Source of the DNA: a virus
Direction: 5' to 3' (one strand)
DNA length: 29,115 bases
Virus record (IMG/VR): IMGVR_UViG_3300025889_000681
Coordinates: 1 to 29,115 of that record
Below are positions 10,309 through 28,064 of this stretch, piece after piece. Made by a program: the position numbers and the translations under genes. The notes below the pieces were generated by a model. It saw nothing but the letters and a program-made list of their open reading frames with translations. It was not told the DNA's origin and ran no database searches. Each line of letters opens with the position of its first letter. Positions within the stretch are counted from its first letter, which is position 1.

Positions 10309-13161
10309 ATGGACACATCTACTTTCCTACAGGGAGTACTCGGCACAGAGGGTCACTACTGTGTCTGGGCGCTCAAAGAGCAGCGTATGGTGCAGAAGTT
10401 CTACGGCACCATAGACGAGTTAGAGCATGCAGCTAACAACCTAAACGAGAACGGCTTCGACACCTACTACGCACTCGCTACTTTCGACGAGGCGGGGTCA
10501 CGCGAAGCCGATAACGTCAGGCAGCTGCGTGCGTTCTTCATGGACTTGGACTGCGGCGTGCACCTCAAGAAGGGCACACCAAAAGACTTTCCAGATCAGT
10601 CTACGGCCATCGCGCAGCTGCGTGCGTTCTGCAAGACGGCAAACCTGCCGCGCCCTACGATGGTCAACTCTGGCTACGGCGTGCATGTCTACTGGCCGCT
10701 GACCGAGCCGGTGTCCTTGGTGGAGTGGCTTCCCGTCGCCGAGCGGCTCAAGGCACTGGCGAACTTCCACGGGTTCAAGGCCGACAAGAACGTCACCGCC
10801 GATGCTGCCCGCGTACTGCGCGTGCCGGGTACGAGCAACCACAAGGGCGACACGCCTGCGCCTGTCACGGTGCTGGGGATATCCGATCACGAGCCCGTGT
10901 CATTCGAAACATTCGCAGCGCGCGTCAACGCCGCTGACCTCCCTACAAAACCAGTTTCTACGAACAAGTTTACGCCCCGCCCTGCGCACAGCGCGATGAT
11001 GGACGCGCTGATCGGCAAGCGTGAAGCACGCTTCAAGACGATCCTCGAAAAGACCGCCGAGGGTAAAGGCTGCGCACAGCTGGCGTACATCATCCAAGAA
11101 CAAGCCACGATGGAAGAGCCCATGTGGCGCGCGGGGCTGTCGATTGCGGCGTTCTGTTCGGACGGCGCTAAGGCTGCGCGGATCATGTCCGAGGGCTACC
11201 CCGAGTATGACTCGGAGGAGATGCAGTACAAGCTGAGCCGCATCAAAGGGCCGTATCTCTGCACGCGGTTCGACGAGTACAACCCCGGCGTCTGCGTCAG
11301 CTGCCCGCACTGGAACAAGATTAAGTCGCCCATCGTCCTAGGGCACCAGTACAGGGAGGCCACCGAGGAAGAGAACACGGTGGTCGTACCGAGCGCAGAA
11401 CCAGACAAGCCCGCGCAGGTCTACCAGATACCCCCATACCCGAAGCCTTACTTCCGTGGCGCGGGAGGCGGTGTGTTCCTACGGCAAACGGACGAGGATG
11501 GCGAAGTCATTGAACGCTGCATCCATGTCCACGATCTCTATGTCGTGAAGCGGATCATAGACCCAGAGACAGGCGACTCGATGCTGTTTCGGCTGCATCT
11601 GCCAAGAGACGGGGTTCGGGAGTTCGTCATCCCTAACCATGTCGGGACATCGAAGGACAAGTTCCGCGAGGCGATATCGTCTGCAGGTATATACGCACTA
11701 GGAAACGAAGTGGATGCACTGATGAGATACACACAAGCATGGGTGAATGAGTTGCAGCACACTACCACTGCGGAACTAGCACACCGGCAATTCGGTTGGA
11801 TCGACGACAAACTCTCTGGGTTCGTGCTGGGCAGCAAGGTGCTTTACGCCGACCGCAGCGAGTACAACGCCCCTGCGGCAAATACGCGCGCCACCATAGG
11901 CGCGTTCAGTAGTAAAGGGACACTTGACGACTGGAAGCGAACCATCGCTTTCTACGACCGCCCCGGCTTCGAGCTACATCAGTTCGTCGTCTGCGCTGGG
12001 TTCGGAAGCGCCCTAATCCAGTTCACGCCCGTGCACGGGTCGCTCATCCACCTGTGGAGCAAGGACTCTGGGTTCGGCAAGACACACGCGCTCTACTCGG
12101 CGATGTCCATATGGGGGAACCCAGAGCAGCTGATGCTCAAGCACGACGACACCTACGTCTCCAAAATGAACCGTGCAGAAGTCTACAGAAGCGTGCCGGT
12201 CTGCATGGACGAGATCACCAACATCAAGCCTACCGATGCGTCAGAACTTATCTACCAAGCCACCAGCGGGCAGCAGCGCAACCGCATGTCGAGCGGCTCC
12301 AACAATGAGCGGTATCGTGGCGATCCTTGGAAGCTGCTCTTCATAACCACGGGCAACACGAGCCTCATCGACAAGGTCAGCCTAGCCAAGGCCATGCCCC
12401 GCGCAGAGGCGCAGCGCGTCATCGAGATGGAAGCAACGAGGCTCTTCCACGGCGCGGTGGACAAAGAACTCACAGACAAGTTCAGTCTCGACATTCTGAA
12501 CAACTACGGCACCGCAGGAGAAGTGTTCATCCAGTTCGTGCTGAACAACGTAGAAGCAGTGCGCGAACTAGTGCGGCAGTGCCAGAAGAACATCGACGTG
12601 CGTGCGCAACTCAGTTCTGACAACCGGTTCTGGTCTGCTGTGTGCGCCGCTACGATAGCCGCAGCGAGCATCTGCAAGCAGCTTGGGCTGCTCACCTACG
12701 ACGTCAAGAACCTCACCGACTACACGATCAACACGATCATCCGCACAAACCAAGCAGCGGCGGGCGCGTTGAAGCTGTCGGCGGCTGACCTCGTGACCCA
12801 GTATGTCTACGAGAACTGGGGCAAGGTACTGCAGATCAAGTCTACGATTGACCGGCGCGGGAAGAACAACAACGGCATCGACGAACTTGTGGTGCCGGAT
12901 CACCAGCCGCGTGTAGATATCGTGGGCCGCTACGAGACAGACCTTAAACAGCTGTACCTCGTTATTAAACCTTTCCGCGTTTGGCTTGCAGAACAGCAGA
13001 TCAACTTTGCCTCGGTGTACGAAGAGCTACGCACCACCCTGCAGGCCAACAAGTTGAAGATGCGGATAACCAAAGGCACCCACATGAACCTGCCCGCTAC
13101 CGATGTAGTGATGGCGAAGATAGCGTTGGAAGACCCCACCGATGCCGGTGCATCTACTTGA
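10309..13161 (+). CDS. Primase-polymerase/helicase fusion (AEP primase + DUF927-like ATPase)
   Basis: A 950-residue replication protein. Residues about 1-200 form an archaeo-eukaryotic-type primase: the DxD pair in FFMDLDCG (Asp79, Asp81), the SGYGVHVYW motif (His126) and the third acidic residue in TADAARVLRVPGTSNHK (Asp165). Cys318, Cys329 and Cys332 (LCTRF and CVSCPHW) look like a zinc-binding linker. Residues about 500-800 form a P-loop ATPase resembling DUF927: Walker A KDSGFGKTHAL (Lys591), Walker B VPVCMDEITNI (Asp634-Glu635) and a sensor strand LLFITTGNTSL. One polypeptide thus supplies primer synthesis and fork unwinding. The ATG at 10309 is 19 bases past the terminator's T-run, with GAGTGG as a weak ribosome site. 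The end overlaps the next gene by 20 bases. Confidence 0.85.
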   Translation: MDTSTFLQGVLGTEGHYCVWALKEQRMVQKFYGTIDELEHAANNLNENGFDTYYALATFDEAGSREADNVRQLRAFFMDLDCGVHLKKGTPKDFPDQSTAIAQLRAFCKTANLPRPTMVNSGYGVHVYWPLTEPVSLVEWLPVAERLKALANFHGFKADKNVTADAARVLRVPGTSNHKGDTPAPVTVLGISDHEPVSFETFAARVNAADLPTKPVSTNKFTPRPAHSAMMDALIGKREARFKTILEKTAEGKGCAQLAYIIQEQATMEEPMWRAGLSIAAFCSDGAKAARIMSEGYPEYDSEEMQYKLSRIKGPYLCTRFDEYNPGVCVSCPHWNKIKSPIVLGHQYREATEEENTVVVPSAEPDKPAQVYQIPPYPKPYFRGAGGGVFLRQTDEDGEVIERCIHVHDLYVVKRIIDPETGDSMLFRLHLPRDGVREFVIPNHVGTSKDKFREAISSAGIYALGNEVDALMRYTQAWVNELQHTTTAELAHRQFGWIDDKLSGFVLGSKVLYADRSEYNAPAANTRATIGAFSSKGTLDDWKRTIAFYDRPGFELHQFVVCAGFGSALIQFTPVHGSLIHLWSKDSGFGKTHALYSAMSIWGNPEQLMLKHDDTYVSKMNRAEVYRSVPVCMDEITNIKPTDASELIYQATSGQQRNRMSSGSNNERYRGDPWKLLFITTGNTSLIDKVSLAKAMPRAEAQRVIEMEATRLFHGAVDKELTDKFSLDILNNYGTAGEVFIQFVLNNVEAVRELVRQCQKNIDVRAQLSSDNRFWSAVCAATIAAASICKQLGLLTYDVKNLTDYTINTIIRTNQAAAGALKLSAADLVTQYVYENWGKVLQIKSTIDRRGKNNNGIDELVVPDHQPRVDIVGRYETDLKQLYLVIKPFRVWLAEQQINFASVYEELRTTLQANKLKMRITKGTHMNLPATDVVMAKIALEDPTDAGAST

Positions 13162-13423: not shown

Positions 13424-13451
13424 GACCCCCGCCTCGGCGGGGGTCTTTTTT
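13424..13451 (+). terminator. Rho-independent terminator at the convergent junction
   Basis: GACCCCCGC (13424-13432) pairs with GCGGGGGTC (13437-13445) around a CTCG tetraloop and is followed by six T residues. It ends the plus-strand arm. Its T-run overlaps the stop codon (TTA on this strand, 13450-13452) of the giant minus-strand gene. Read on the minus strand the stem lacks a following T-run, so minus-strand termination there would be weaker. The rest of the gap (13364-13423) shows no gene. Confidence 0.85.
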
Positions 13452-16400
13452 ATTGGAACAGCTGGAATCCCCGGTCGTACATATCCTCTAGGTCGTTTAG
13501 GGCGTCCCTAACTCCGGGGGCCAAAGACACGCCGCTGGACATTTCTTTTGTCGTCCGCAGGTGCGACTTCAGCGAGCGCTCAAGGTAGTCGCGGTCTATG
13601 ACGGAGTTGGGGAACCGTTCACGCATGCTTTCGTTGAACGCTTGGATGTCCTCCAGCACTGCACGCGCTTCCTCGACATCACCGACACGCAGAGCGAGGT
13701 AGTACCGCTTGCTAAGCTGCTGGCGCTTGGCCGCGACGTTCTTGTCGATACGGACCTTCATCTGGTTCAAGTCTTGCTGAAGGCTGACCTCGTTAGGCCG
13801 GAAGCCTAAAGCCTGCCCGAGAAGATCAGATGCACCAAGATCACCCGTGATGATGTCGCCGCGCCGCGTCTCCACGCTGCTGTTGTCGTGCGCAAACCGA
13901 AGGGACTTCATGGCATTGCGGATCGCAGCGGGCATTGTGTTCTCTAGGCCGCGCACCATGTCGCCTTCCCCGCCGGTCATGGCGCGATACATCTCGGCGA
14001 CACCGGTACCAAACTGCGACATCGTGGACCAAGCAGGGCCACCGAGGGCTGCAACGATGCTCTCCTCCGCGCTCGGGTCTGTGTTGTACCGATTGTCGCG
14101 GATGAGTAGCCCGGTCAGGCCGATACGCGAGGAGATGTCGAGCCCGGTGGCCTCAGTCAGCATGCCCTTGTAGATACCTTCGCCGAGGTAGCGGCGTGCG
14201 ATCATATCGGCGTTTTCTTCGTCGTCGCCGAGGAACGCGTCCATCACCGTGCTGAAGATGCCATAGAGCGGCACACCAGACACACCGGCAAGCAGGCCGA
14301 CAGACATCTGGATACCAACCAGCTGCTTGAAGGCGGCGTTACGCAGCGCGACACGCTCCGGGTCTCCACCGGGGAACATGTTGTTGACGAGTTGCCGGGC
14401 CAGTTTGGCCTGAAGATAGGCGATAGTCAGGCCGTAGTTCTTGAACATCAACGCAACGCGCCCGATGCCCTTCTGCGCCAGACGCGGCGCAGTGACGAGT
14501 GTAGAGCCACCGTTAGTCTCGGTCGCTTGGTAGATCGCACGCTCAGCCGCGAGTGCTTGTTTCTGCTCAGGCGACAGCCCCTGCTCTCTCGGACCCGGAC
14601 GCTGGTTGAGACGCGCAAGCTCCAGTTTGTAGGCCGCAACGAGCGTCACCTGCCGGTTGAACCGCTCGACGTTGTGGAACATGGCACCGCTGGCAGCGTT
14701 CACTTTGTCCAGCGTGGTGCGTGCGCGGCCTACATCCTCGACCCCGATGCTGTCGTAGAAGACAGACCGGTTAAGCTGCCCGTTCTTTGACGCAAGCTCC
14801 ACGAGGGGCCTAAGCTGCTCCAACTCTGCGCGCATGTTCTGCGGCACATTGTCGCGCAGCACGAAGTTACCCGCTGCATCGAGCGTGAAGTAGTTGTCGA
14901 TGGACGGCATCGACCGCACGGTCGTCGTGTTCTGCCCCATGTACTCTGTGGGGAGCCGAAGCTCCTGCGAGAACCCACTGTTAGTATAGAGCTTGAACGC
15001 ATCTGCCATAGCCGTAGCAGTGGCCCGTAAGCCGTATTTCCCGGCTAGATACGGGTAGGCAACCGTAGGCAGAGACGAGAGGTTAACAGCCGCAGACGAT
15101 ACGTTACCCCCGATGGTGAAGGTAAACGCAAACTTGTTTGCAGCTTGAAAGGCTCTGTTCCATGCGTCCGCAGGCGGGTTAACCGCAAACTCGGCGCGGT
15201 CGAGCAGTTCCGCGATAACCGCCAGCTTGTTCTCGTCCGCAGACTTTTTAGCCTGCTCGCGGATGTCGTTTGCAGCGCGGCGGATACTAGCGGAGTACTT
15301 GAACCGCGTAGCCTGCCGCCCGAGGCTGTACGCCTTCTGCTTGAACGCGCCGTAGGCATCGCGGTCAAAGCCCGCAGTGTTGTTGCGTTTCTGCAGCGAT
15401 TTGGCGAAAGACGTCTCGGGCAGCGCCTCGATGAACAGCCGAGTGATGTCCCGCTGGATAGAGTCAATCGTTTGCTGCTGGGCACCGGCAGCTGTCATAC
15501 GCTCGCGAAGGATTTTCAGCGTGTCTGCGACGAACATGGAGTCCGGTGCACGGCTGTAATCCACGAAATCCATGGCGTTGTAGGCCGTATAGTTTACCGC
15601 ACCCGTGCTTGTCTTCACCACGTTAGGGTCAGCGGCTAACTCGGAGATCATGCGCGTCCGGGCGTTTGGCGACTCGAACGCCATCTTGACCCGTTCTGTC
15701 GTGTTAGTTTTGGGGTCGAACGCATCGAACTCCAACCAGAAATCGCCTTTACGCGTGAGCGGGAAGTACGGCTCGATCTGGTTGAAATCGAAAAACTTGG
15801 ATGTGATTTTGGCCTTCAGCTCTTTTGCAGCGGTGGTCTCGCTGCCCAGAGCGTCGTCGATCCGCCCGAAGAGTGCGTCCTTTAGCCGCATGTATTGCTG
15901 GCGGTAGGTCTCCCGCATGAGGTTGTAGATACCCTGACCGGGCGCGGCGAGCGCCGCCCAGTCTTTCTGCATGTCCCGATAGACCTTCATCTTGTCCGAG
16001 TTCTTGCCGTATTTGTCTTCGGCTTGCTTGAGCGTCAGGCTCGGGTCAACCTGATTGACCGTGCTCGTGTAGATGACGTTGTCCAGTGTACCTTTGAGCG
16101 ACGGGTTCTTCTTCAGCCACTCGGTCATCACCTTGAGAACAGCGTCCACTTCGCCGTCAGATTGGATCGAGGCAGAGTCGCCCTCGCGGATGACCCGCTC
16201 CAGTGTATCGACACCTTTGATGCCGTAGTGTTCGGCGATGTCCCTAACGGGCTGCATACCCATGAAGCCGAGGATGATGCGCTTGCCCGTGCTGGACGCA
16301 CCGGCCAAGACCTGCGATGCGGAGTCGCCAAAGTCCCGTGCAAACTCCTTTGTGGCTTTCGGGAACGCGCCGTCGATCTCGGCGATAGTATTGAGGACCG

Positions 16401-19400
16401 CAGACACCCCCGACGGGGTATTGAGCCGGTAGAGCATACCGCCAGTCCGCGCCTCGGGCACCGGGGCCATGATGGCCCGCGTGTAGAAGTCCACCGCGTC
16501 GAGCGCGCTGCTCAGCGGCTTCTGCGGCATCCCGAGTATACGGCGTACGAAGTTGGCAATCGTGTTGCCGAGCTTGTCGAGGACCGAGTACCGCCGCCCC
16601 TTGGGATGCAGCATGCCGAGTTCGCTCTGGAACTTGGGGTTTGTCATGGCCTCGGCGATAAACTCGTCGAGGCTGCGCGCCGCGTTGATGTCCTTCAGGA
16701 GCGGGCGTGCTTCGTCGAAGATTTTCTTCAGCTGCTGTGCGTAGGGGTTGTTAGGATCACGCACCTGCGCGGCGGTAGCCGCGTGCAGCATCTCGTGCAG
16801 CAGCGTGGTCGGCGTGAGTCCCGTGTCGGCGTCCAGATAGATCGTGTTAGTGCTCATATCGAACGCGCCGTAGGTGCGAAGCTCGGGGTTTGTCCTCCCA
16901 AAAAACGCATCCAAGTCGCTGACAACCTCGACTGTTACACCTTCGGTAAACGCCGAAAGCTGTGCGGCAGTGCGAGCAATGCGCTTGTTTGCCGCGTAGA
17001 AGGCCAGCATACGCAGGGCAGTGCGCAGGTCTCCGTTCATGAGCGGCTTGGCTACTGCAGGATGCAGCGGGGCATCGAGGTCGGCGTACTCGTCGGCCAG
17101 CCGGGGTATCAGCCCTTTCTTCTTCCACTTGGCGAAGAGCGCGTCCACAGCGGCGCTGTCCTCCGCCGACTGCCGTGCCGTACGCGCAGCTTCGTCCGCC
17201 TGCCGCACAGCCTCGGGCACTTTCGGCTTTGCACGGACCTCGGCTTCTCTTTTGGCGGTACGCCGTTCCGCTTCCCGCGCTTCGCGGAATGCTTCAGACG
17301 ATAGCCTTTCGCGCGCGCCCTCGGTCTCTTGCTTGAACGCAAGCTCGGCCTCGCGGCGCACGGCGGCTTCTCCGCCTGTAACTCCTTCTTTTTCCACCTG
17401 TTTTGCTACATCGGTTTCACCCTGCACTTTCGGTGCACGGGCTTCAGCCGAGGATACGGAGTAACCCAACGATTTTTTCAACGCCCGCTGCGCTTGGGGC
17501 GACAGGTTCTTATTTACCCACGCCGCCGCTTTTTCCCCGCTGCTCGCGCTAAGACCCTCGAAGAACGCTTTCTCTGCGGGTGTAGCATCGCGGAACTCGG
17601 GCAACAGGCCGTCTGTTTCCTCGACGACAGTGTCTTCAGGCAGCAGGCCCTCTTCGTCGGCCTTAGTAAAGTCTCCGCCAGTAAGTTTGCTCGGTATCTT
17701 GTTTGCGCCTTTGCGCTTCTTGTTAACCTTGGCAATCGCGGCGTCCGCAGCAATCCAGTCAATCGCGTCGATGGGCCGCGCGAACCGCGAGAAATACCGC
17801 TTGGCAGCGCCAGCAGTCCCCCTATCGGTCTTGCTTTTGAGCAGCGCGATGATAGCCCGCTTGTCCGCACTTGTAGTGGGGTCGTCCACGACGAGATTGT
17901 CTGGCGTCGAGAAGTCCTTAGTAAGCTCGTCGATGTTGGGGGCGTCGGTTTCGGCCATCCACGCAGCGTGCATGGCGTTCAGTTCGGCTTGCGCCACTGC
18001 GTTTGCGGTGCTTTCGCCCTCTGCGATAGCCGCAGTTTCTTCTGCCGTAAACGTAGCAAACCGCGAAGGCGCTTCCGGCTCAGCCGGGGCGCTGGGTGCG
18101 GCGGGCGCGGGAGCCGGTTCAACGATGGCCTCATCCCCCGGACGGAAGAACGGGCGACTTGTTGCCTGCAACGTGGCTGGGTCAACGCGCACGCGCGCAC
18201 CGGGGATAAGTTGCCGCGTCAGCGGACGATCCGGGCCTTCAAACACAACCGGCTCAGGCGGTGCACGGAGATAGGCTTCGATGTTAGACCGCACCGGGGC
18301 AGACTTGGTCTTGCCGCCGAACTCACGCAGCGCGGCGTCAAACTCGGCTTTGGTCTTGATCTTGTCCGTGTTGGTACGCTGATAGACCGCCGTGCCCTTG
18401 GGCACACCCATGCTGACAAGACGCTCTAGCGCAGCGGCCTTATCAAACGGCGCGGGGGCAGGAGCCGGGGCGGGGGCAGGGGTAGGAGTGGGAGCAGGAG
18501 TGGGAGTAGCTTTACGAAACCCTATCGGTTCTAGTGCATACGCTAGCAGCTCTTCATCTGTTTTATTGGCTGCAAAGTCGGGGACGTAGTTTGACGTGCT
18601 ATCGTCTGTGATTATCGCAGCACTACCGTCTGGCGCGCGTACGACGCGGGCAGAAAAAGAACCTGCGTCTTCTGTGTCTACAGCGTATTGCTTAGACGTA
18701 ATACCCAGTTTTTTTGGCTTAGGAGCGACTTCAGGCGCGGCCTCGGGAGCAGCAGCGACTCCGGGCGCGGGAGCAGTGACCTCAGGCACAGCGGGCGCTT
18801 CAGGCGCAGGGACTTCAGGCGCGACGGGCTCTTCGGGCGGCGGCGCAACGACAGCGGCGGGAGCCTCTGCCTTCTTCTCTTTCTTGCCCTCCGCTGCTTT
18901 CGGCGCAGCTTCAGGTGCGGCAGCAGCCTCGGGTGCAGGTGCAGCCGGGAATATCATCTTACCCGAAGCGCGGTCGAACGAGACTAGCCCGAGAGACTCA
19001 AGCTGACGGACACGGTTCTGCAGTTCGGGGTACTTGATGCCGAGCGCCTGCGAAGCCTTACCGTACTCACCGCCTGTAGCGCGCAGTGCCTCTATAGTAG
19101 CAGGGATGTCGAACTCTTCAGAGACAACAGGGGCACCCACTGCAGGAGCGGGAGCAGGAATAGGAGTAGGGGCAGGTGCCCCAGCGGTGGGAGGGACCGC
19201 TGGGGCTGGACCAGCGGCGGGGGGAGGGACCGCTGGAACGGGTGGAGAAGGCGGAGCGGGGGGCGCAGCTTCAGGCGCAGCTTCTGCTTCAACTTCAGGC
19301 GCAGCCTCGGCTTCAACTTCAGGCGCAGCTTCTGCTTCCGGCGTTGTAGTGGGCGCAGCGGGCGTAGCAGCAGGGGGTGTAGTAGCGGGAGGAGTAGTAG

Positions 19401-20244
19401 CAGCTGCGCCGCGCTGACGCGGAAGGGCAAGGTCGAGAAGCGCCTGCACAAATGCGCCGACACCAGCGCCGTAGCCTAGTGACTCGCCAGTACCGGTGAA
19501 GATACCCAGCTCGGGGTTATATACCTTCTGCTCAATAAGGTTTTGCGCGAGGTTAGTCGCGGCTTCTTGCGCACCTTCGGTACCACCGGAAATAGAGGCA
19601 CGCTTGATTCGGTCGATGATCGCGCCCGTCGTCGGACGCCCAAGAGCCTTTATGACACCAAGGGTAAGAAGGTCTGCCGAGCCAACAGCGCCGCCCCCTA
19701 GTGTGGATATAAACCGCTCCCCTTCGGTAGCACCTGCCGCACGGGCGCGCTCAGAGGCTTCGCCTGCGCCCATACCAACGGCCAACATGCCAGCGGCCTT
19801 CGCGCCAATGCGCGGTAGTATGCTCGCACCGCCAAGCGCGCCGAAAGAACCGAGAGCCTCGCCAAACTTTCCAGCTACCGTATCTTCCAGACCGACATCG
19901 GCCTGCGGCTTCAACCCATACGCGGTGCCCCGGATAAACTCACGCGCAGTATCGTCTAAACCCGGCGCTAGCAACGAGGCTAACCCGAGCGCACCGGTCT
20001 CCAGCGCACCGACCGCACCGCGCGCGACGCCCTTGGGGAACTCGCCAAGGTAGTTGAGGATACCCTCACCTTCGTCTGTAAGCTGCCTACCGAACCGGGC
20101 TTCATACTCGCGGGCACGCCGGGTATCTTCTTGGTTGACAAAAGCGTCAATCTCCATCCGCTCGTCAACAGTAGGCTCGTCCCCGGCGATCCGTATCCTA
20201 TAGTTACGCCCCGTGTACGGACCCGGTACAGATATGGTACCCAT
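13450..20244 (-). CDS. Giant polyvalent-like virion/ejection protein with zincin motif, 2264 aa
   Basis: Residues 70-270 are Gly/Ala-rich amphipathic helices (GVARGAVGALETGALGLASL), as in membrane-active ejection proteins. Residues 280-370, 430-515 and 580-600 are Pro/Ala linkers separating small modules; one at 375-430 (IEALRATGGEYGKASQALGI onward) resembles a helix-turn-helix. Residues 1140-1220 hold a metallopeptidase signature TLLHEMLHAAT (His1150, Glu1151, His1154) with a downstream DEFIAEAM that could supply the third ligand. Residues about 1690-1990 resemble LPD38 of phage polyvalent proteins (ERFNRQVTLVAAYKLE, then GIGRVALMFKNYGL). The ATG at 20244 follows CGAGAGGC. It is probably packaged and injected with the DNA, where a protease and DNA-binding modules could act on the host. 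The zincin motif is seen directly; LPD38 and the injection role are inferred. Confidence 0.8.
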   Translation of the reverse strand: MGTISVPGPYTGRNYRIRIAGDEPTVDERMEIDAFVNQEDTRRAREYEARFGRQLTDEGEGILNYLGEFPKGVARGAVGALETGALGLASLLAPGLDDTAREFIRGTAYGLKPQADVGLEDTVAGKFGEALGSFGALGGASILPRIGAKAAGMLAVGMGAGEASERARAAGATEGERFISTLGGGAVGSADLLTLGVIKALGRPTTGAIIDRIKRASISGGTEGAQEAATNLAQNLIEQKVYNPELGIFTGTGESLGYGAGVGAFVQALLDLALPRQRGAAATTPPATTPPAATPAAPTTTPEAEAAPEVEAEAAPEVEAEAAPEAAPPAPPSPPVPAVPPPAAGPAPAVPPTAGAPAPTPIPAPAPAVGAPVVSEEFDIPATIEALRATGGEYGKASQALGIKYPELQNRVRQLESLGLVSFDRASGKMIFPAAPAPEAAAAPEAAPKAAEGKKEKKAEAPAAVVAPPPEEPVAPEVPAPEAPAVPEVTAPAPGVAAAPEAAPEVAPKPKKLGITSKQYAVDTEDAGSFSARVVRAPDGSAAIITDDSTSNYVPDFAANKTDEELLAYALEPIGFRKATPTPAPTPTPAPAPAPAPAPFDKAAALERLVSMGVPKGTAVYQRTNTDKIKTKAEFDAALREFGGKTKSAPVRSNIEAYLRAPPEPVVFEGPDRPLTRQLIPGARVRVDPATLQATSRPFFRPGDEAIVEPAPAPAAPSAPAEPEAPSRFATFTAEETAAIAEGESTANAVAQAELNAMHAAWMAETDAPNIDELTKDFSTPDNLVVDDPTTSADKRAIIALLKSKTDRGTAGAAKRYFSRFARPIDAIDWIAADAAIAKVNKKRKGANKIPSKLTGGDFTKADEEGLLPEDTVVEETDGLLPEFRDATPAEKAFFEGLSASSGEKAAAWVNKNLSPQAQRALKKSLGYSVSSAEARAPKVQGETDVAKQVEKEGVTGGEAAVRREAELAFKQETEGARERLSSEAFREAREAERRTAKREAEVRAKPKVPEAVRQADEAARTARQSAEDSAAVDALFAKWKKKGLIPRLADEYADLDAPLHPAVAKPLMNGDLRTALRMLAFYAANKRIARTAAQLSAFTEGVTVEVVSDLDAFFGRTNPELRTYGAFDMSTNTIYLDADTGLTPTTLLHEMLHAATAAQVRDPNNPYAQQLKKIFDEARPLLKDINAARSLDEFIAEAMTNPKFQSELGMLHPKGRRYSVLDKLGNTIANFVRRILGMPQKPLSSALDAVDFYTRAIMAPVPEARTGGMLYRLNTPSGVSAVLNTIAEIDGAFPKATKEFARDFGDSASQVLAGASSTGKRIILGFMGMQPVRDIAEHYGIKGVDTLERVIREGDSASIQSDGEVDAVLKVMTEWLKKNPSLKGTLDNVIYTSTVNQVDPSLTLKQAEDKYGKNSDKMKVYRDMQKDWAALAAPGQGIYNLMRETYRQQYMRLKDALFGRIDDALGSETTAAKELKAKITSKFFDFNQIEPYFPLTRKGDFWLEFDAFDPKTNTTERVKMAFESPNARTRMISELAADPNVVKTSTGAVNYTAYNAMDFVDYSRAPDSMFVADTLKILRERMTAAGAQQQTIDSIQRDITRLFIEALPETSFAKSLQKRNNTAGFDRDAYGAFKQKAYSLGRQATRFKYSASIRRAANDIREQAKKSADENKLAVIAELLDRAEFAVNPPADAWNRAFQAANKFAFTFTIGGNVSSAAVNLSSLPTVAYPYLAGKYGLRATATAMADAFKLYTNSGFSQELRLPTEYMGQNTTTVRSMPSIDNYFTLDAAGNFVLRDNVPQNMRAELEQLRPLVELASKNGQLNRSVFYDSIGVEDVGRARTTLDKVNAASGAMFHNVERFNRQVTLVAAYKLELARLNQRPGPREQGLSPEQKQALAAERAIYQATETNGGSTLVTAPRLAQKGIGRVALMFKNYGLTIAYLQAKLARQLVNNMFPGGDPERVALRNAAFKQLVGIQMSVGLLAGVSGVPLYGIFSTVMDAFLGDDEENADMIARRYLGEGIYKGMLTEATGLDISSRIGLTGLLIRDNRYNTDPSAEESIVAALGGPAWSTMSQFGTGVAEMYRAMTGGEGDMVRGLENTMPAAIRNAMKSLRFAHDNSSVETRRGDIITGDLGASDLLGQALGFRPNEVSLQQDLNQMKVRIDKNVAAKRQQLSKRYYLALRVGDVEEARAVLEDIQAFNESMRERFPNSVIDRDYLERSLKSHLRTTKEMSSGVSLAPGVRDALNDLEDMYDRGFQLFQ
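18451..18509 (-). repeat. Low-complexity Pro/Ala/Thr linker repeat
   Basis: G-rich six-base units (GGGGCA, GGAGCC, GGGGCG and variants), read on the minus strand, encode alternating Thr-Pro and Ala-Pro dipeptides (ATPTPAPTPTPAPAPAPAPA). This is a linker inside the giant gene. Short-unit repeats of this kind are prone to length change by slippage. Confidence 0.75.
19267..19338 (-). repeat. Three tandem 24-bp units in the giant gene
   Basis: Units at 19267-19290, 19291-19314 and 19315-19338 are near identical (three differing columns). They encode the eight-residue element EAEAAPEV on the minus strand, repeated with a final EAEAAPEA. They belong to the acidic Pro/Ala linker between the N-terminal region and the HTH-like module. 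Confidence 0.85.
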
Positions 20245-20256
20245 GTGCGCCTCTCG

Positions 20257-22404
20257 TTAGCTTGCGCGTGCAGCAGACGTAGCAAAGTCCTCGCCGCCAG
20301 TGTCACCACCGCCTACACCGTACAACTCACCCATAAGGCTGTTGATCTGCGCGGTCAGCGCTTCCCACTGCCCCAGCCTCTCGTCGGTGGGAGGATTACC
20401 CATCGGGTCTTCCAACCCTTTGCGAAGCTCTATAAGCGCAGTTAATTCTCCTGCTGCATCACTCCGCATCTGCCGCGCCAAAGTAGCCGCTTGATATGGT
20501 GTAAGACCCTTACCCTGCGCCGCCGCAGCCAGCTTAGCCCGGTTAAGCCGAGTGCTCTCCTGCAGTGCCAGCAGTTCCAGACGATCCTTGTCGTACTGCG
20601 CGCGGCCTTCTTGAAACTGCTTGAGGCCAGCTGCACCGGCTTCGCCGAGCGCACCGGCAAACGTCGGTTGACGCGACCCCATAAGTGCAAGGCCGGTCTG
20701 GGCCAGCGCCAGCCATTTGTCCTGCTCGGCACGCTTCTCGCGCTGCTGAAGAAGGTTGGCGATCTCGCTCTCGAAGGGGGACATGGCACCGACGAGCCCT
20801 GCGGGAGGAGCGCGCTTCGCGGGAGGAGCAGTGGGAGCACCGGAGGGAGTAACAGAGGGGCGAGGAGGGGGTATGGGCACGGAGTCGCGGGGAAGTAACA
20901 ACGCCTCAATGCCGCCTTCCGGCAACGCGATATTAGAGCCTTCGGTTGTTAACGGTTGTGGCAGTGGGGCTTCCGGGTGGATATACAACGGGTCGCGCGG
21001 ATACTGCCCTTCTTCCCCCGTATAGGTAGATACGACAGGGTCAAAGGCACTCGTGAAGGGCAGCATCTCGCGGCGAGCAGCTGCGGCCAGCGCTTCTTCT
21101 TCGCGCCTACGCCGCTCAGCCTCGGTTACGTCAAACATGGCAGCGGCGGCTTCTTGGCCGCGCGTTGTGTCACCGAGACCGGCAGCTAGGGGAAGATTTT
21201 GTGCGCCGGTAAGCGCACGCGGAACATCTTGAGGAGCAGCTGCAATAGCCGGGGGAGTGAGCGCAGCGAGTTGGGGCATAGTAGGCGCACGCATAACCGC
21301 CGGCGCTGCGCCCGGTGAAGGCATGAATGCGCTACCAACGTCGGTAAAAACGTCGGGTTGCATTCCTTGCACATCGAACAGAAACGCAGCTGCGCGACGA
21401 CGACGTTCGGCCTCTTGAGACGCGCCGACAGTGTTAGCACCAGCGCGCCCGCCACGAACATCTTCCGCCATCTGTGCGCGAGCTATCTCACGCTCCATCT
21501 CTGCAGGGAGTGCAGTAGGGTCTGGGAAAAGGAATCTATCATCGGCAGCAGCCCGACGACGGTTTTCGCCCTCTATAAAAGCATCAAGGGTGCTAGCACC
21601 AGCGCGCCCGCCACGAACGTCCTCTGCCATCTGCGCGCGAGCCATCTCGCGCTCCATCTCTGCGGGGAGCGCAGTGTATATGTCGCCGGTTCTGTATGAA
21701 GCAGATGGGATATCCGGCTTTTCAGCCGTAGTGCTACCCCCTACGGGCAAGGGGATAGGACCGGGCACAGCGGGTACATCGACACCACTACGGAACGCAC
21801 GGGGTCTACTTTGGTATACTTGCGCGAGTGTACGCCGCAACGGCTTAGCAGAAATGCCGGGCGCAGTAACCATCGCGCTCGGCGGCGCAAGAACGTCGAG
21901 CAGTTCAGGGTAGTTCTCAATCATGCGCTGCGCGTCTTCGACAGTAATGCCGAACATATTCGCAATCTGCATGATGCGCGGGTTGCTGGTGCGCGTACCC
22001 ACCCTAGCACTTGTGCTGCGCTCTACATTGCGCTGCGCCCGCTCAAGATCAGCAATACCGCCCCGCTGCATCTTCTGCACATACCCGCCAGATGCCATCT
22101 GCTGAACGGGGGCCTGCGGCATAGCGCCGGTGTTCTGTGCCATGTCAGTGTTGGGAGCCATGGCGCGGGAGATGCCTGCGATGCCCTCCTGCGGGACACC
22201 CGCTCCGGTCACAGCGTCTTGAGCGACAGTGGTCTGAGGTTGTCCCTGATTCTGGGCGTACGCCTTCTCCATCTCCCGACGACGGGTGATCTCGCTAAGG
22301 ACAAGGAACTGAGGAACCTGACCGGAAGGCATCTGCACCTCCCTGATCAGTTGCTCCATCGGCATGCCCTTGAGGGCGTCCTGAACCTCGATGACGTTCA
22401 TCAT
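20257..22404 (-). CDS. Virion-associated protein with internal duplication, 715 aa
   Basis: ATG 22404 shares a base with the upstream stop; GTG 22407 and ATG 22401 are alternatives. The N-terminus is helical (VQDALKGMPMEQLIREVQMP), followed by a Gln/Ala-rich segment and a SGGYVQKMQRGGIADLERAQ element related to one in the 358-residue protein. Residues about 240-350 contain two copies of a block including EMEREMARAQMAEDVRGGRA, 53 residues apart. The rest alternates Pro/Ala-rich linkers with short helices, ending in a coiled coil (about 540-700, e.g. FESEIANLLQQREKRAEQDK). No enzyme motif is seen. The place between other virion genes and its composition suggest an internal or ejection protein. 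It lies 12 bases before the giant gene and is probably co-transcribed. Confidence 0.65.
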   Translation of the reverse strand: MMNVIEVQDALKGMPMEQLIREVQMPSGQVPQFLVLSEITRRREMEKAYAQNQGQPQTTVAQDAVTGAGVPQEGIAGISRAMAPNTDMAQNTGAMPQAPVQQMASGGYVQKMQRGGIADLERAQRNVERSTSARVGTRTSNPRIMQIANMFGITVEDAQRMIENYPELLDVLAPPSAMVTAPGISAKPLRRTLAQVYQSRPRAFRSGVDVPAVPGPIPLPVGGSTTAEKPDIPSASYRTGDIYTALPAEMEREMARAQMAEDVRGGRAGASTLDAFIEGENRRRAAADDRFLFPDPTALPAEMEREIARAQMAEDVRGGRAGANTVGASQEAERRRRAAAFLFDVQGMQPDVFTDVGSAFMPSPGAAPAVMRAPTMPQLAALTPPAIAAAPQDVPRALTGAQNLPLAAGLGDTTRGQEAAAAMFDVTEAERRRREEEALAAAARREMLPFTSAFDPVVSTYTGEEGQYPRDPLYIHPEAPLPQPLTTEGSNIALPEGGIEALLLPRDSVPIPPPRPSVTPSGAPTAPPAKRAPPAGLVGAMSPFESEIANLLQQREKRAEQDKWLALAQTGLALMGSRQPTFAGALGEAGAAGLKQFQEGRAQYDKDRLELLALQESTRLNRAKLAAAAQGKGLTPYQAATLARQMRSDAAGELTALIELRKGLEDPMGNPPTDERLGQWEALTAQINSLMGELYGVGGGDTGGEDFATSAARAS
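21431..21675 (-). repeat. Direct duplication with 159-bp period
   Basis: Copies at 21431-21516 and 21590-21675 (86 bases each) differ at nine positions. All nine are transitions and eight are in third codon positions, giving only two amino-acid changes (Met/Ile, Ser/Asn). They encode the ALPAEMERE...RGGRAGA block of the 715-residue protein. Confidence 0.9.
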
Positions 22405-23717
22405 CACTGAAGACCCTTATAGAGACCGAGAAGCGAGATGCCTGTGCCGAGCGCCTGCTGCCCTGCACTGGGGGTGGGCTGATACGTTGTCGCAGTACCA
22501 GCAGGTGCGACCGGGAGACCACGAAGCATCGTAGAGACTTGCCCCAGTTGTTCCATGGGATACCCCTGTTGCCGCAGGAAGTCCTGATAGGCCACATCAA
22601 GCCCAGCCTGCCCGCGAGCCATCTCACCGAGACCTTGCGCTTCCAGAAGCTGCGCACCCTGAATATCAGCGGCGCGCTGGCGCTCACCCAAGCCAGCCAA
22701 ACCAGACGCTGTACTTGCCAACGCTTGATAACCGGCCAGCGCTTGGCCCGCGCCGAACTGACGGGACTGCTCGATAGCCGCTTGGCGGCGTGCCAGATCC
22801 TCATAGCGAGCGGCCTGAACGCGGGCAGCTTCAGCAGCCTCCGCATTGCCAGCACGGGCAAACTCAGCAGCCTGTGCCGATTCCCTGTTGGCGAGTTCAG
22901 TGTAGCGCGCCTGATCGACACGGGCCTGTTCAGCCGCTGCGGCCTGCTGAACCCTAGCCGCCTCTGCTGCGCGCTGCTGCTCCACCTGCATACGGGCAGC
23001 GCGATCAAGACCGAATTGCTGTGCCGCCTGCTCAAACGCAGCTTGAGAACCACGCGCTTGGATGTCGCCCATCTGGCGAGCAAGGGCCTCTTCTGCCAGC
23101 GCCTCCTGCACGGCCTGCCGCGAACCACCGAAAGCACCGGCCTGAACAGCCTGCGCGGCGCGCCCTGCACCCTGCCGCTCAAACTCTAGTTGAGCCTGAC
23201 GCTGCTGCTGCTCAACCGCAGACTGCATGTAGGGGGACATGTACTGCTGAACAGCGCCCCCGGTGAAGGTCTCTGGCTGCTGATACTGGAACTGCTGGAA
23301 CTGATAGTCAGGACGGAACCCATACTCAGAGAACTGGAAGGGGCCTCTGAAGTCATACTGCTGGAACTCCCCGAAGGGGGTGAACTCGCCAGTCCTATAT
23401 TGAGCCGCGCCTTCCAAACCAGTAATCGCACGACGGGTGGCACCCATCGCTTCATTCATACCGGCAATAGGCGTACCAGCAATCCCCCGGATCATCTCCT
23501 GAGACCCGCGGATATCCTGCGGGGTTTCAGCTAGGCGCTGCCCCTCGTAAGCCTGATACGGCTTGAGGCCTATCTGCTCCTGCCCTTCAGGGCCCTTGGT
23601 AATGTCGAAGATTTGCCCTTCAGTGGCTGACAAGAGCCGCTGGTAAGAAGGTTTAGCCCACTCAGGGACGTCCTGAATCTGCGTCTGCGTTGCCGACTGC
23701 CCGCCGCCCTTACCCAT
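22404..23717 (-). CDS. Gln/Ala-rich coiled-coil virion protein, 437 aa
   Basis: ATG 23717 lies eight bases inside the GNAT-like gene. The N-terminal 35 residues (GKGGGQSATQTQIQDVPEWA) are a flexible Gly/Gln segment. A Phe/Tyr/Gln-rich stretch (about residues 112-150, e.g. FGEFQQYDFRGPFQFSEYGF) follows. Residues 165-370 are a long Ala/Gln/Arg coiled coil (EQQQRQAQLEFERQGAGRAA and AEAARVQAARYEDLARRQAA). The C-terminus is Gly-rich and weakly hydrophobic. There is no enzyme motif. Long Ala/Gln helices are typical of podovirus internal core proteins that are ejected with DNA, so an internal virion protein is the best guess. The stop overlaps the next gene start. Confidence 0.6.
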   Translation of the reverse strand: MGKGGGQSATQTQIQDVPEWAKPSYQRLLSATEGQIFDITKGPEGQEQIGLKPYQAYEGQRLAETPQDIRGSQEMIRGIAGTPIAGMNEAMGATRRAITGLEGAAQYRTGEFTPFGEFQQYDFRGPFQFSEYGFRPDYQFQQFQYQQPETFTGGAVQQYMSPYMQSAVEQQQRQAQLEFERQGAGRAAQAVQAGAFGGSRQAVQEALAEEALARQMGDIQARGSQAAFEQAAQQFGLDRAARMQVEQQRAAEAARVQQAAAAEQARVDQARYTELANRESAQAAEFARAGNAEAAEAARVQAARYEDLARRQAAIEQSRQFGAGQALAGYQALASTASGLAGLGERQRAADIQGAQLLEAQGLGEMARGQAGLDVAYQDFLRQQGYPMEQLGQVSTMLRGLPVAPAGTATTYQPTPSAGQQALGTGISLLGLYKGLQ

Positions 23718-24138
23718 TTGTCAACTCCATCTTGTAGCAGACATACTCAGGCTTCCACCCGGTTCCCTTGAGAAGTCTACTCCAGCCCTCGCGGCCAGTG
23801 AACTCTATATGCGAGCATCCATTGTGGTCAGCGTGCTTACGCATCGCTTCGATGGTCTCGTGCATCCATGATGATATACCAGAACCACCGATCCAGTCCA
23901 ACACCATCGCTCTGCAACCGGGGTAGGATGTCACCCGCGTAGTATAATAGCCGACAGGCGTGTCTCCACGAAGCACCATCCACAGGACGCTGTTGCCAGA
24001 AACAATGTCTGCGTAGGTGTCCGAGATATTTGTTCTGCCGTTCGAGCGATCTACCGCAGGCTTGAGCCAGCGCGCTGCATCTGGCCACATCGCGTCTAGC
24101 ATATCGCGAGGTATAGCATAGACGCGGACATCCGACAT
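23710..24138 (-). CDS. GNAT-like acetyltransferase-fold protein, 142 aa
   Basis: The start follows directly on the stop of the upstream gene (TAAATG). The layout matches a GNAT fold: an N-terminal strand and helices (VYAIPRDMLDAMWPDAARWL), central strands (SVLWMVLRGDTPVGYYTTRV) and a C-terminal helix-strand region (SSWMHETIEAMRKHADHNGC, then a GWSRLLKGTGWKPEYVCYKM ending). The pyrophosphate-binding 'R/Q-x-x-G-x-G/A' loop is not canonical (IGGSGISSWM stands there), so catalysis is uncertain. GNAT-like proteins without clear activity occur in podovirus virion clusters, for example near internal core genes. A structural or assembly role is as likely as acetyl transfer. Confidence 0.55.
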   Translation of the reverse strand: MSDVRVYAIPRDMLDAMWPDAARWLKPAVDRSNGRTNISDTYADIVSGNSVLWMVLRGDTPVGYYTTRVTSYPGCRAMVLDWIGGSGISSWMHETIEAMRKHADHNGCSHIEFTGREGWSRLLKGTGWKPEYVCYKMELTNG

Positions 24139-25233: not shown

Positions 25234-25533
25234 CTACGTCGTGTTCACTGTTACCGAACCGACTGAGCCAGTACCAGATGACCCACGGACATGAGGCGTG
25301 TTTGTCTCACTTATTTTAACATACCCGCCATGGTTAAAGATAGCCCCCGGCTCCAGACCAACGTCGTCAGTCTGTAGTGCCGTGAAGACTGTGAAGGTGT
25401 TCCTGCCCTCTCCGGGGTTGCGTGCCTGATCTAGGTAGATCGAGAACGCACGGATCACCTCGTTGAAGTACCGCTGGTCGTACTCCTTGGGAGGGATCGG
25501 GAAGTATGGTGCCGGTACAAGCCTGTTTGACAT
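25234..25533 (-). CDS. Small conserved virion-associated protein, 99 aa
   Basis: The start shares one base with the stop of the 639-residue gene. The N-terminal half (FPIPPKEYDQRYFNEVIRAF) is a short proline-rich lead and a helix. The second half is beta-rich and Gly/Thr-rich (GLEPGAIFNHGGYVKISETN, then a VRGSSGTGSVGSVTVNTT tail). I associate this 'P..P..Y...Y.n.viRaf...' plus 'GvvkI' layout with a recurrent small gene in the virion clusters of marine and freshwater tailed phages. A trimeric or tail-tip role is possible; the sequence does not prove it. Confidence 0.65.
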   Translation of the reverse strand: MSNRLVPAPYFPIPPKEYDQRYFNEVIRAFSIYLDQARNPGEGRNTFTVFTALQTDDVGLEPGAIFNHGGYVKISETNTPHVRGSSGTGSVGSVTVNTT

Positions 25534-27452
25534 CAGCGCCTACCGTCTGGTCTGATATCAATCCTCGGTGATCCCAGTCTCCAGCCAATTCCTGTCGTCG
25601 AAGACTCGACGCGCAGCGCCATCGACCTGCCACGCAGGCGCACATAGACCTGATTGGTGAACTGCTCGACCGGCGTCGATGCAGTCTTTGTCACCGTCTC
25701 ATTGTCATCCTGAAGGTAGGCACCTCCGGGGAAGTTACGCGCCTTCATCGTGAACACTACCGATGGCGATGTGGCAGTTGAGTTCCTAAACGTGATGTCA
25801 GGGATCAGACGGCTGACAAAGCTGAAGTTGTTGCCATCAGCAATGTCGAACTGGCTCGACTCGATGTAGGCGTTGATGCCTGTCGCAGGCGACGTGCTGC
25901 CGTCGTCGAAACCATTCTCATGGTAGTAGAGATAGCCATCAAGGCCAGCAGCTATCGGGAAGCCAACGACACCACGATCAATCCAAGCACTGCGCGCCAT
26001 GGAGCCGTAGTACCAGACATTCTGCTCGTAGTTGTAGACGACGTACCTGTCGAGGTTGTCGCTGTTGGCAGAGGGATAGAACCACCAGATCTCTGCAAAT
26101 GACGTGTTGGTCGAGCAGTAGACTTTTTCGATCTGGTTGGTGTTGAAGTTCGAGAATACATAGTCCCTGACAGAGCATGGCAGCTTCTGCACAGAGCCAT
26201 TGTAAACATAGAACTCTGTCTGCCCCATCCAGAAGACGCTGTCGTCCACAGCTACAGCAGCGTTCGGCCCGACAATGGTGGTGCCCTCTGCGAGCATGTT
26301 TATACCGAAGGTGAACGGAGGCCCAAGATACTGCATCGCGTGGACGGATATGTCAGTGAATACAAGTATCTGCTGCCGCGTCTCGATGGCAGTGACGATA
26401 CTTGAACCAGAGCCGACAAGCAGATCGCCCGCCGTGTTTGTGGTTGTCGGCGTCCAGTCTGCCGCGTTCTCCTGATCGGAGAAGCGAATGAGCAGAGGAT
26501 CTTGCGTTGAACTGCCAAGAGGATTGCAGCCGAAGGCAATGACGTGCCTGTCAACGTCAGACACAATAATCTTCGCCGCGACAGTCGGAGGGTTGCTGGC
26601 ACCAGTGAGCGATGTCAGTGGCACTGCACGCTGATCCAACGGCGTCGGAGCAGAAGCGTCCCAGTAGTATATCCCGCCATTATACACGTTGATGATGAGG
26701 TCTTCGCCAAAGTTGTCATGTGACCAGACCCGGAGCGTATCCGTCAGAGCGCTAACAGGCGCAGCAGACCCCCAAGTGCCTCTACTCCACGCACCAGCGC
26801 CCCAACCGTTCCCGTAAACCGAAGTGTTGATGCCTGTGTTGATCTGGTAGGCACCCACAACGGCAGCGCCGCCATCACCTACATCAGACGAATCCGCCAC
26901 GACAGGTGTCGGCGTGTACTGTCCGTTGACCGTGATGTCAGCCACCGTGTCCACTGCACGAGCAACTATCGTGTAGGAGTTATCGTTTACGATGGTGGCG
27001 ATCTGGTACTCTTGGTTAAGCACTGCGGCTGTGATCTGCCCGCCAAGACTGACAGCACCACTGAACGTGACAAAGTCACCAGCCACCGCGCCATGTGCCG
27101 TGTCGGAAACTGTCAGGACAGAAGAGCCGTCAACGGCAGCGAATGTCACATCACCAGCGGCTGTCGTCGCCCTGATGGGCGTGATGTCGTAGTAGCCTTC
27201 GCCCTCTTCGATGTAGTACTTCAGGTTGGTGCCGAGACCCAGATAGTTATCTAGGTTGATCGTCCTCCACGCATGCAGAGCGCGGCACGTCCCCAAGAAG
27301 GACTTCAGTCCCAGCTTTACCCAACCGCCGATCTTTTCTGGAAAGCCTGCGCGAAAGCGCATCTTGTCCATGTCGAACCAGCCGCCCTCGTTGCTGTACG
27401 AGGTGGTTTCCTTGTTGATGCCCGGTTGGAACTGTAGCTTGGTTAGCGGCAT
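25533..27452 (-). CDS. Tail / DNA-stabilisation-type protein, 639 aa
   Basis: The N-terminus LQFQPGINKETTSYSNEGGW, followed by DMDKMRFRAGFPEKIGGWVK, matches the pattern '..pGi....t.y..eg.w...d.vRf..g...k.gGw' of phage tail accessory/stabilisation proteins (P22 gp10-like general type). The body is beta-rich with repeated strands and Ser/Thr/Asn-rich loops, as in a beta-propeller or beta-helix (VFWMGQTEFYVYNGSVQKLP; EIWWFYPSANSDNLDRYVVY). There is no coiled coil or membrane segment. It would sit at the head-tail or tail-tip region and seal packaged DNA. The ATG at 27452 has AGGGG upstream. It heads a run of coupled virion genes. Confidence 0.6.
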   Translation of the reverse strand: MPLTKLQFQPGINKETTSYSNEGGWFDMDKMRFRAGFPEKIGGWVKLGLKSFLGTCRALHAWRTINLDNYLGLGTNLKYYIEEGEGYYDITPIRATTAAGDVTFAAVDGSSVLTVSDTAHGAVAGDFVTFSGAVSLGGQITAAVLNQEYQIATIVNDNSYTIVARAVDTVADITVNGQYTPTPVVADSSDVGDGGAAVVGAYQINTGINTSVYGNGWGAGAWSRGTWGSAAPVSALTDTLRVWSHDNFGEDLIINVYNGGIYYWDASAPTPLDQRAVPLTSLTGASNPPTVAAKIIVSDVDRHVIAFGCNPLGSSTQDPLLIRFSDQENAADWTPTTTNTAGDLLVGSGSSIVTAIETRQQILVFTDISVHAMQYLGPPFTFGINMLAEGTTIVGPNAAVAVDDSVFWMGQTEFYVYNGSVQKLPCSVRDYVFSNFNTNQIEKVYCSTNTSFAEIWWFYPSANSDNLDRYVVYNYEQNVWYYGSMARSAWIDRGVVGFPIAAGLDGYLYYHENGFDDGSTSPATGINAYIESSQFDIADGNNFSFVSRLIPDITFRNSTATSPSVVFTMKARNFPGGAYLQDDNETVTKTASTPVEQFTNQVYVRLRGRSMALRVESSTTGIGWRLGSPRIDIRPDGRR

Positions 27453-27500: not shown

Positions 27501-28064
27501 CTACTGGCCCATTCCTTTTACAGCAGAGGCAATGCGGCCAACCCATGTGCGCTTGCTCGCCATCTCAAGGGCTGCGTGTAGCGTCTCCTCATTCCGCCGA
27601 AGCCATCCACGACCGAAGGTGTCGAACGTGCGGAGGCCGCGATAGAAAGCCTCGCGCGCATCAGCCATGTCCTGCACGATTTCTTTCGGGTCTTTCTTTT
27701 CGACAGCCGCCAAGGTCGCAGGCCCAATGCCGCCATCAGGCGTCACGCCAACGATCTTCTGTAGCGCCTTTGCCGCGCGGCCAGTGCCAGAGTTGACGGC
27801 CCAGTCGAACACGGCCCAGTCCACGCCACCGGGAAGGTCGTCGCCACGCACCTTGTCCCAGTACAGCTTCTTGTACAACGGCGCGACATCCTTCACCGTC
27901 AACTTCTTCATCGCGTCCGGTGCAGCAGGCTTGCCGATCCACTCTTCCCAGACCTTGCGGGTGACACCCAAGTTGGTTTCCCCACCGGGGTCTTTGGGGT
28001 GATTGACGTAGCCACCCTCGTGCTTGAGGAGCATTTCCAAGCAGTCGTCGAAGTTCTCTTTCAC
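27501..28064 (-). CDS. Endolysin, glycoside hydrolase family 108 with PG-binding domain
   Basis: A 187-residue muramidase. The N-terminal domain starts with LEMLLKHEGGYVNHPKDPGG (catalytic Glu16 in the EGGY motif) followed by ETNLGVT, the family hallmark. The C-terminal part (GGVDWAVFDWAVNSGTGRAA, then LQKIVGVTPDGGIGPATLAA) matches the peptidoglycan-binding domain usually joined to GH108. It hydrolyses the glycan backbone of peptidoglycan at the end of infection. No signal peptide is seen, so it needs a holin to reach the wall. The start overlaps the spanin stop by four bases, giving the order membrane proteins, spanin, endolysin. Length is typical. Confidence 0.9.
   Translation of the reverse strand: MKENFDDCLEMLLKHEGGYVNHPKDPGGETNLGVTRKVWEEWIGKPAAPDAMKKLTVKDVAPLYKKLYWDKVRGDDLPGGVDWAVFDWAVNSGTGRAAKALQKIVGVTPDGGIGPATLAAVEKKDPKEIVQDMADAREAFYRGLRTFDTFGRGWLRRNEETLHAALEMASKRTWVGRIASAVKGMGQ

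Follow-up and report, generated by a model that had tools for sequence, protein, structure and literature searches.

The polyvalent proteins of phages (Iyer et al. 2017, PMC5512222) are very large late-gene products in which an MPTase, LPD39 and linkers are found and relatives of which are injected or virion-borne. For these, autoprocessing has been proposed, at a point ahead of packaging, inside the head or following injection, with cleavage of host proteins as the alternative (PMC5512222). The virion RNA polymerase (vRNAP) of phage N4, gp50, is encoded at the end of the late genes, opposite the replication module, and its C1 domain (residues 2124-2375) contains HExxH and a downstream Glu. 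Other internal virion proteins of podophages, occupying the gp16 slot, are exemplified by those of f30-Xaj, PhiM1 (gp48) and Ab05 (core protein); the annotated ones are labelled transglycosylase or endolysin. A further group comprises the PLxRFG or DarB-like giants of LASTA, POI1126, H66, RHph_TM29 and Rollin, which possess PLxRFG, often LPD39 and usually an upstream HExxH.

The window analysed here, a complete IMG/VR record of 29115 bases that is most likely a genome fragment, encodes a protein with traits of all four groups. The gene is a single uninterrupted open reading frame of 2264 codons at 13450-20244 on the minus strand, the plus frame of this interval being full of stops. The preliminary description had placed and sized it correctly, albeit with an overestimate of its share of the window, which is 23% and not more than a quarter. 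The gene closes a minus-strand operon of late virion genes, and a replication module converges on it from the other side, an order that recurs in dozens of relatives and is also that of N4 gp50. The main features of the locus are as follows.

10309-13161, plus strand: DUF927 primase/helicase-like protein, convergent with the giant gene, an arrangement kept in relatives (profile matches)
13450-20244, minus strand: giant protein of 2264 amino acids, very probably of the internal-virion polyvalent type (reading frame and homologues)
20257-22407, minus strand: 716-amino acid protein directly upstream of the giant gene in the late operon, kept with it in close relatives (neighbourhood comparison)
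22404-23717, minus strand: 437-amino acid Gln/Ala-rich protein with a weak match to a DNA ejection protein family (phrog_4287, 5.1e-6; biased composition)
25533-27452, minus strand: virion structural protein of the giant gene's operon (phrog_3287, 3.5e-72)

Besides the virion structural gene and the weak ejection-protein match, the minus-strand block holds a GH108 endolysin, so that the giant gene lies, as is typical of polyvalent proteins, near late virion genes. The plus-strand module encodes a primase/helicase, an SNF2 helicase, a PD-(D/E)XK nuclease and a DNA polymerase A, and adjoins the giant gene in relatives too. Terminase, portal and capsid genes were not recognised within the window fragment; in a 62-kb relative (G003), terminase, portal, major capsid, tail fibre and the phrog_3287 gene are found on one strand, with the giant gene last. 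The P22-type portal model of Pfam matched none of nine relatives, but PHROG does find the portal of the 62-kb relative. Since no tape-measure or tail-tube genes were seen among the genes scanned, a podovirus type is likely, if not proven.

The giant protein is built of the following parts, given from the N-terminus to the C-terminus and all encoded on the minus strand.

19405-20244, minus strand: residues 1-280, Gly/Ala-rich hydrophobic N-terminal region, possibly a membrane-active segment
18025-19404, minus strand: residues about 281-740, low-complexity Pro/Ala/Glu linker region (composition)
18949-19122, minus strand: residues 375-432, possible winged-helix/HTH module (weak in the window, E 0.02)
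16459-17067, minus strand: residues 1060-1262, zincin metallopeptidase domain of the N4-vRNAP C1 type (alignment, AF2 model, structure and profile matches)
16783-16797, minus strand: HExxH motif, H1150 E1151 M L H1154 (100% in 71 sequences)
16663-16665, minus strand: E1194, predicted third zinc ligand, within EFxAE (100% in 71 sequences)
15808-16314, minus strand: residues 1311-1479, LPD39, PF18858 (Pfam, E 3.5e-16)
13516-15771, minus strand: residues 1492-2243, PLxRFG / tail-700 module NF032893 with the signature PYFPLTRKG (NCBIfam, E 8.8e-95)

The N-terminal 280 residues are of moderate hydrophobicity, and the N-terminus and a GxxE..QEA motif are common to the giant protein and its relatives. 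The Pro/Ala-rich linkers noted in the preliminary description are real, Pro and Ala together making up 55% of residues 301-400 and 45% of residues 401-500. For residues 375-432, only weak HTH matches were obtained in the window protein; near the equivalent position, the relatives L017 and L020 contain an FtsK_gamma winged helix (E 1.3e-8 in L020). A PDB search with the full-length single sequence returned no matches. A zincin, LPD39, PLxRFG and a possible HTH module are disparate domains, an LPD included, and Pfam, NCBIfam, the AF2 model and the profile matches together support the earlier assignment to the polyvalent-type proteins. The protein is thus a new addition to an already described class of phage polyvalent and internal virion proteins, of which it represents a minimal case, because it contains only one recognisable enzymatic domain; in contrast to the proteins of Iyer et al. 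(PMC5512222), LPD38, SNF2/methylase, ART and nuclease domains were not found in it. From N4 gp50 it differs in that it has no RNA polymerase domain and continues into LPD39 and PLxRFG instead of N4 C2, and from the gp16-slot proteins in that PLxRFG was not seen in the latter. The PLxRFG giants, in turn, are mostly of 2.8-5 kaa with extra domains, and the zincin of several belongs to another clade (HEAFHS).

The HExxH motif was found at residues 1150-1154 as first noted; the acidic DEFIAEAM described downstream of it is also present, starting at residue 1193, but the gap is 39 residues and not about 45. By composition, 0.0026 HExxH motifs would be expected in the giant protein. None of the 71 aligned sequences departs from H1150, E1151, H1154 or E1194, and the position of E1198 is Glu in 93% of them. 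As these sequences were picked by presence of the HExxH pattern, it is a survey of all relatives reaching the site that supports the invariance of H, E and H, while that of E1194 is independent of the selection. A single search of viral contigs, with the C-terminal alignment as query, had supplied the relatives (80 loci); in each one with a protein extending to the region, HExxH lies about 145-310 residues ahead of the start of the C-terminal match, and those without it are proteins truncated by the contig end, none that is long enough for the site lacking the motif. In an alignment of 65 sequences across zincin and LPD39 (26-70% identity to the window protein), the zincin part has 8 invariant columns only, the four residues among them.

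An AF2 model of residues 1036-1487 (pTM 0.52) reached a pLDDT of 85-95 across most of the zincin; LPD39 was in part of low confidence. In model positions, a helix (52-64) is followed by three strands (69-73, 91-94, 99-103), the HExxH helix (110-126) and the helix bearing the Glu (157-166). This corresponds to the zincin fold, with a sheet of three strands between one N-terminal and two C-terminal helices, HExxH in one helix and the Glu ligand in the next. The domain of the window phage would bind zinc and be catalytically active. The Pfam family MPTase-PolyVal (PF18818) was not matched even at E 10, and the domain is therefore filed under the N4-vRNAP zincin clade only.

Foldseek alone gave weak PDB matches for the zincin, so that its affiliation is carried by profile searches and VIA-align. 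The best VIA-align match of the model is the solved N4 vRNAP gp50, residues 2124-2366 (Z 9.0, 174 aligned, rmsd 3.7), followed by anthrax lethal factor (Z 5.7). By itself, a Z of 9 to gp50 would be modest; the sequence evidence is independent of the structure match. The virion RNA polymerase profile phrog_2206 matches the zincin with its positions 2026-2248 (E 3e-11), and hhalign of the zincin against the schitovirus vRNAP of Dinoroseobacter phage R7L gave 95.7%. Searches with hmmsearch yielded schitovirus vRNAPs, a crAss-like phage, Serratia phage Parlo, Rhizobium phage RHph_TM29 and an internal virion protein of Xanthomonas phage f30-Xaj, with an HExxHAAT-like signature in most matches; a reverse search with the f30-Xaj domain independently tied the f30-Xaj group to Parlo and a Vibrio vRNAP. 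Among the viral structure models of BFVD, the internal core protein of Pseudomonas phage Ab05 (3.7e-6) and internal protein D of Bordetella phage BB8 were found. The zincin profile (A3) also matches the solved internal virion protein 9sfn_G (2.8e-6) and, at a borderline E of 0.0069, the PhiM1 gp48 ejection protein 8vb2, HExxH and the downstream Glu being present in both profile alignments. The C1 domain of the N4-type virion RNA polymerases and the zincins of other podophage internal virion proteins are hence homologues of this zincin. The main value of the analysis lies in connecting such zincins, conserved but for the most part without annotation, between podophage ejection proteins that are unrelated to each other.

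In PhiM1 gp48, the stretch aligned to the zincin profile (residues 380-516 of 8vb2 chain A) contains HEAAH and, further downstream, EF; it carries an endolysin/exotransglycosidase-like description, residues 268-528 having been termed endolysin-like in the PhiM1 paper (PMC11440229). Zincin motifs of two clades, HELVHAAT and HEAFHSG, occur together in the Parlo protein, at about residues 1195 and 2557.

The C-terminal region had been compared to LPD38 in the preliminary description. This is incorrect, as PF18857 was unmatched in the window even at E 10, in a search that recovered Burkholderia phage JC1 as positive control at 8.1e-37; the region consists of LPD39 and PLxRFG. Of the two features on which the identity of the protein had been made to depend, a zincin fold around residue 1150 is thus predicted by the AF2 model and by structure and profile matches, but an LPD38 match is absent. 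LPD39 scores 59.9 bits against a curated cut-off of 27 and is present in 63 of the 65 family members. NF032893 scores 318.6 bits against a cut-off of 100, and the PLxR[FK]G motif is found within PYFPLTRKG. Fold comparison of the PLxRFG module with the PDB gave a best VIA Z of 5.7, on single long helices, and nothing below E 0.08 in Foldseek; no known fold was thus recognised, an absence that is not proof. The module does not correspond to N4 C2 (hhalign probability 0.2%) and, as the T7-like RNA polymerase family was likewise unmatched in Pfam, an identity of the protein as virion RNA polymerase was rejected.

A zincin upstream of PLxRFG is usual, not universal: HExx(x)H is found within 900 residues upstream of the module in 11 of 13 proteins compared, in the Vibrio phage douglas protein in the form HExxxH. 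The PLxRFG proteins of PBC5 and Atu_ph08, both long and lacking HExx(x)H around the module, represent natural loss or absence of the zincin. In Pseudomonas phage Rollin, a cultured relative, a 2184-amino acid PLxRFG protein (L107:14453-21007) is annotated 'oligopeptide ABC transporter OppA'; with an HEMGH motif and a PLxRFG profile match of 8.8e-65, this label is likely a misannotation.

That the giant protein is an internal virion protein of the ejection-type, polyvalent kind is very probable. The late-operon position and a GenBank note, according to which mass spectrometry had confirmed the PLxRFG homologue of phage H66 (22.8% identity across the C-terminal module) as a virion component, lend indirect support to the proposed delivery with the DNA. 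For JC1 gp69, a DarB-like giant of 4515 amino acids in a similar operon position, 51 unique virion peptides at 15.6% coverage have been reported (PMC9144972); since both PLxRFG and a zincin of the N4-vRNAP clade are absent from it, it was rejected as a homologue and serves as an analogy only. By such comparison, the protein of the window phage would be packaged and injected, and domain homology and operon position suggest that it would take the gp16 slot of an ejectosome.

Taken as a whole, the reading that we favour, and consider reasonably likely, is that of a podovirus-like internal virion protein with a processing zincin. The giant protein would be packed in the head and enter the cell by injection, either together with the DNA or ahead of it. 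Its hydrophobic N-terminal region and Pro/Ala linkers would allow threading through the tail and association with the envelope; behind them in the chain lie the folded zincin of the N4-vRNAP C1 clade and the LPD39 and PLxRFG modules. The zincin would most likely act after ejection, cutting either the giant protein itself or its ejectosome partners, by which the C-terminal modules might be freed or the channel might mature. This processing role, taken separately, is plausible but open to considerable doubt. A task tied to ejection is favoured, because all carriers combine a large internal virion protein with the zincin while the cargo varies. Self-cleavage is no general rule, given that N4 vRNAP, with its like zincin, is packaged unprocessed (PMC5512222) and that the structural study of gp50 saw no degradation (PMC12633501); the packaging of uncut N4 vRNAP points to a post-ejection or a non-catalytic role. 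Against the reading as a whole also speak the PBC5 and Atu_ph08 proteins, with no such motif around PLxRFG, the want of recognised terminase, portal and capsid genes in the window, a PLxRFG module matching neither a known structure nor N4 C2, and upstream genes in which profile searches met no counterparts from LASTA-type phages. Tentatively, an active zinc protease may be conceived as a general, overlooked part of the podophage ejection machinery that processes injected proteins inside the cell. Such a notion, if entertained, would cover N4-type vRNAPs, Autographiviridae-type gp16-slot proteins, crAss-like cargo and PLxRFG proteins, and the window protein might then be its minimal form, with the zincin as sole enzyme. 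With about 70 environmental relatives, four invariant active-site residues and one recognisable enzyme, the family is a clean system for studying the protease's job in DNA injection, and its kinship to the injected N4 RNA polymerase makes the job of the N4-type protease testable.

Among the other explanations, an injected zincin that cuts host defence, envelope or housekeeping proteins is unlikely. The invariant active site would suit such an effector, host-protein cleavage is among the options listed by Iyer et al. (PMC5512222), and the fold resembles that of lethal factor-type zincins, but the latter likeness shows no function, and neither a target in the host nor a link to defence was seen. 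The claim of a host-takeover or anti-defence effector in the preliminary description has no direct support, Pfam showing no methylase, helicase, ART, nuclease or other effector domain in the protein. The domain, moreover, recurs in the ejection proteins of podophages that are unrelated and differ widely in host and cargo, for which a shared ejection-linked step fits better than a host-specific target.

Quite unlikely is a cleavage during assembly, before packaging or in the head, with a fragment being packaged. Its precedent is DdrB of P1, which has a C-terminal metallopeptidase and is processed before packaging (PMC5512222), against which stands the full-length packaging of N4 vRNAP; the JC1 peptides do not settle processing at their coverage. 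Just as improbable is a non-catalytic, zinc-binding domain that scaffolds the ejection protein or regulates a neighbouring module. It would agree with N4 gp50, for which the consulted sections of the structural study report no protease activity and describe an autoinhibitory C-terminal domain (PMC12633501), but E1151, the catalytic base, is retained throughout the 71 sequences, of which 65 are 26-70% identical to the window protein, and this is more than scaffolding alone would require. A DarB-type antirestriction function, finally, is hardly credible, since phrog_10089 ('DarB-like antirestriction'), although matched at E 1.6e-50, aligns by positions 3942-4627 of 4647 only, that is by its last 686 positions or last 15%, and the DNA methylase/SNF2 helicase pair is absent from the giant protein (Pfam). 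The label is inherited from giant proteins having just the C-terminal module in common, and it is unfit for transfer to proteins that share this module alone.

Some minor observations concern the remainder of the window; Rfam and tRNA scans gave no matches. Profile searches were empty for the upstream genes as GNAT, head-closure or late structural counterparts of those of LASTA-type phages; the 142-amino acid protein encoded at 23710-24138 is GNAT-like by eye, with no match to Pfam or the phage GNAT profile. In the 716-amino acid protein (20257-22407), a stretch of about 25 residues, ALPAEMERE(M/I)ARAQMAEDVRGGRAGA, is repeated almost identically. The GH108 endolysin, encoded at 27501-28064, includes a peptidoglycan-binding domain. 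At 1364-2622, neighbouring genes encode a glycosyltransferase (PF04488) and a cytidylyltransferase-like protein (PF01467), possibly for sugar decoration.
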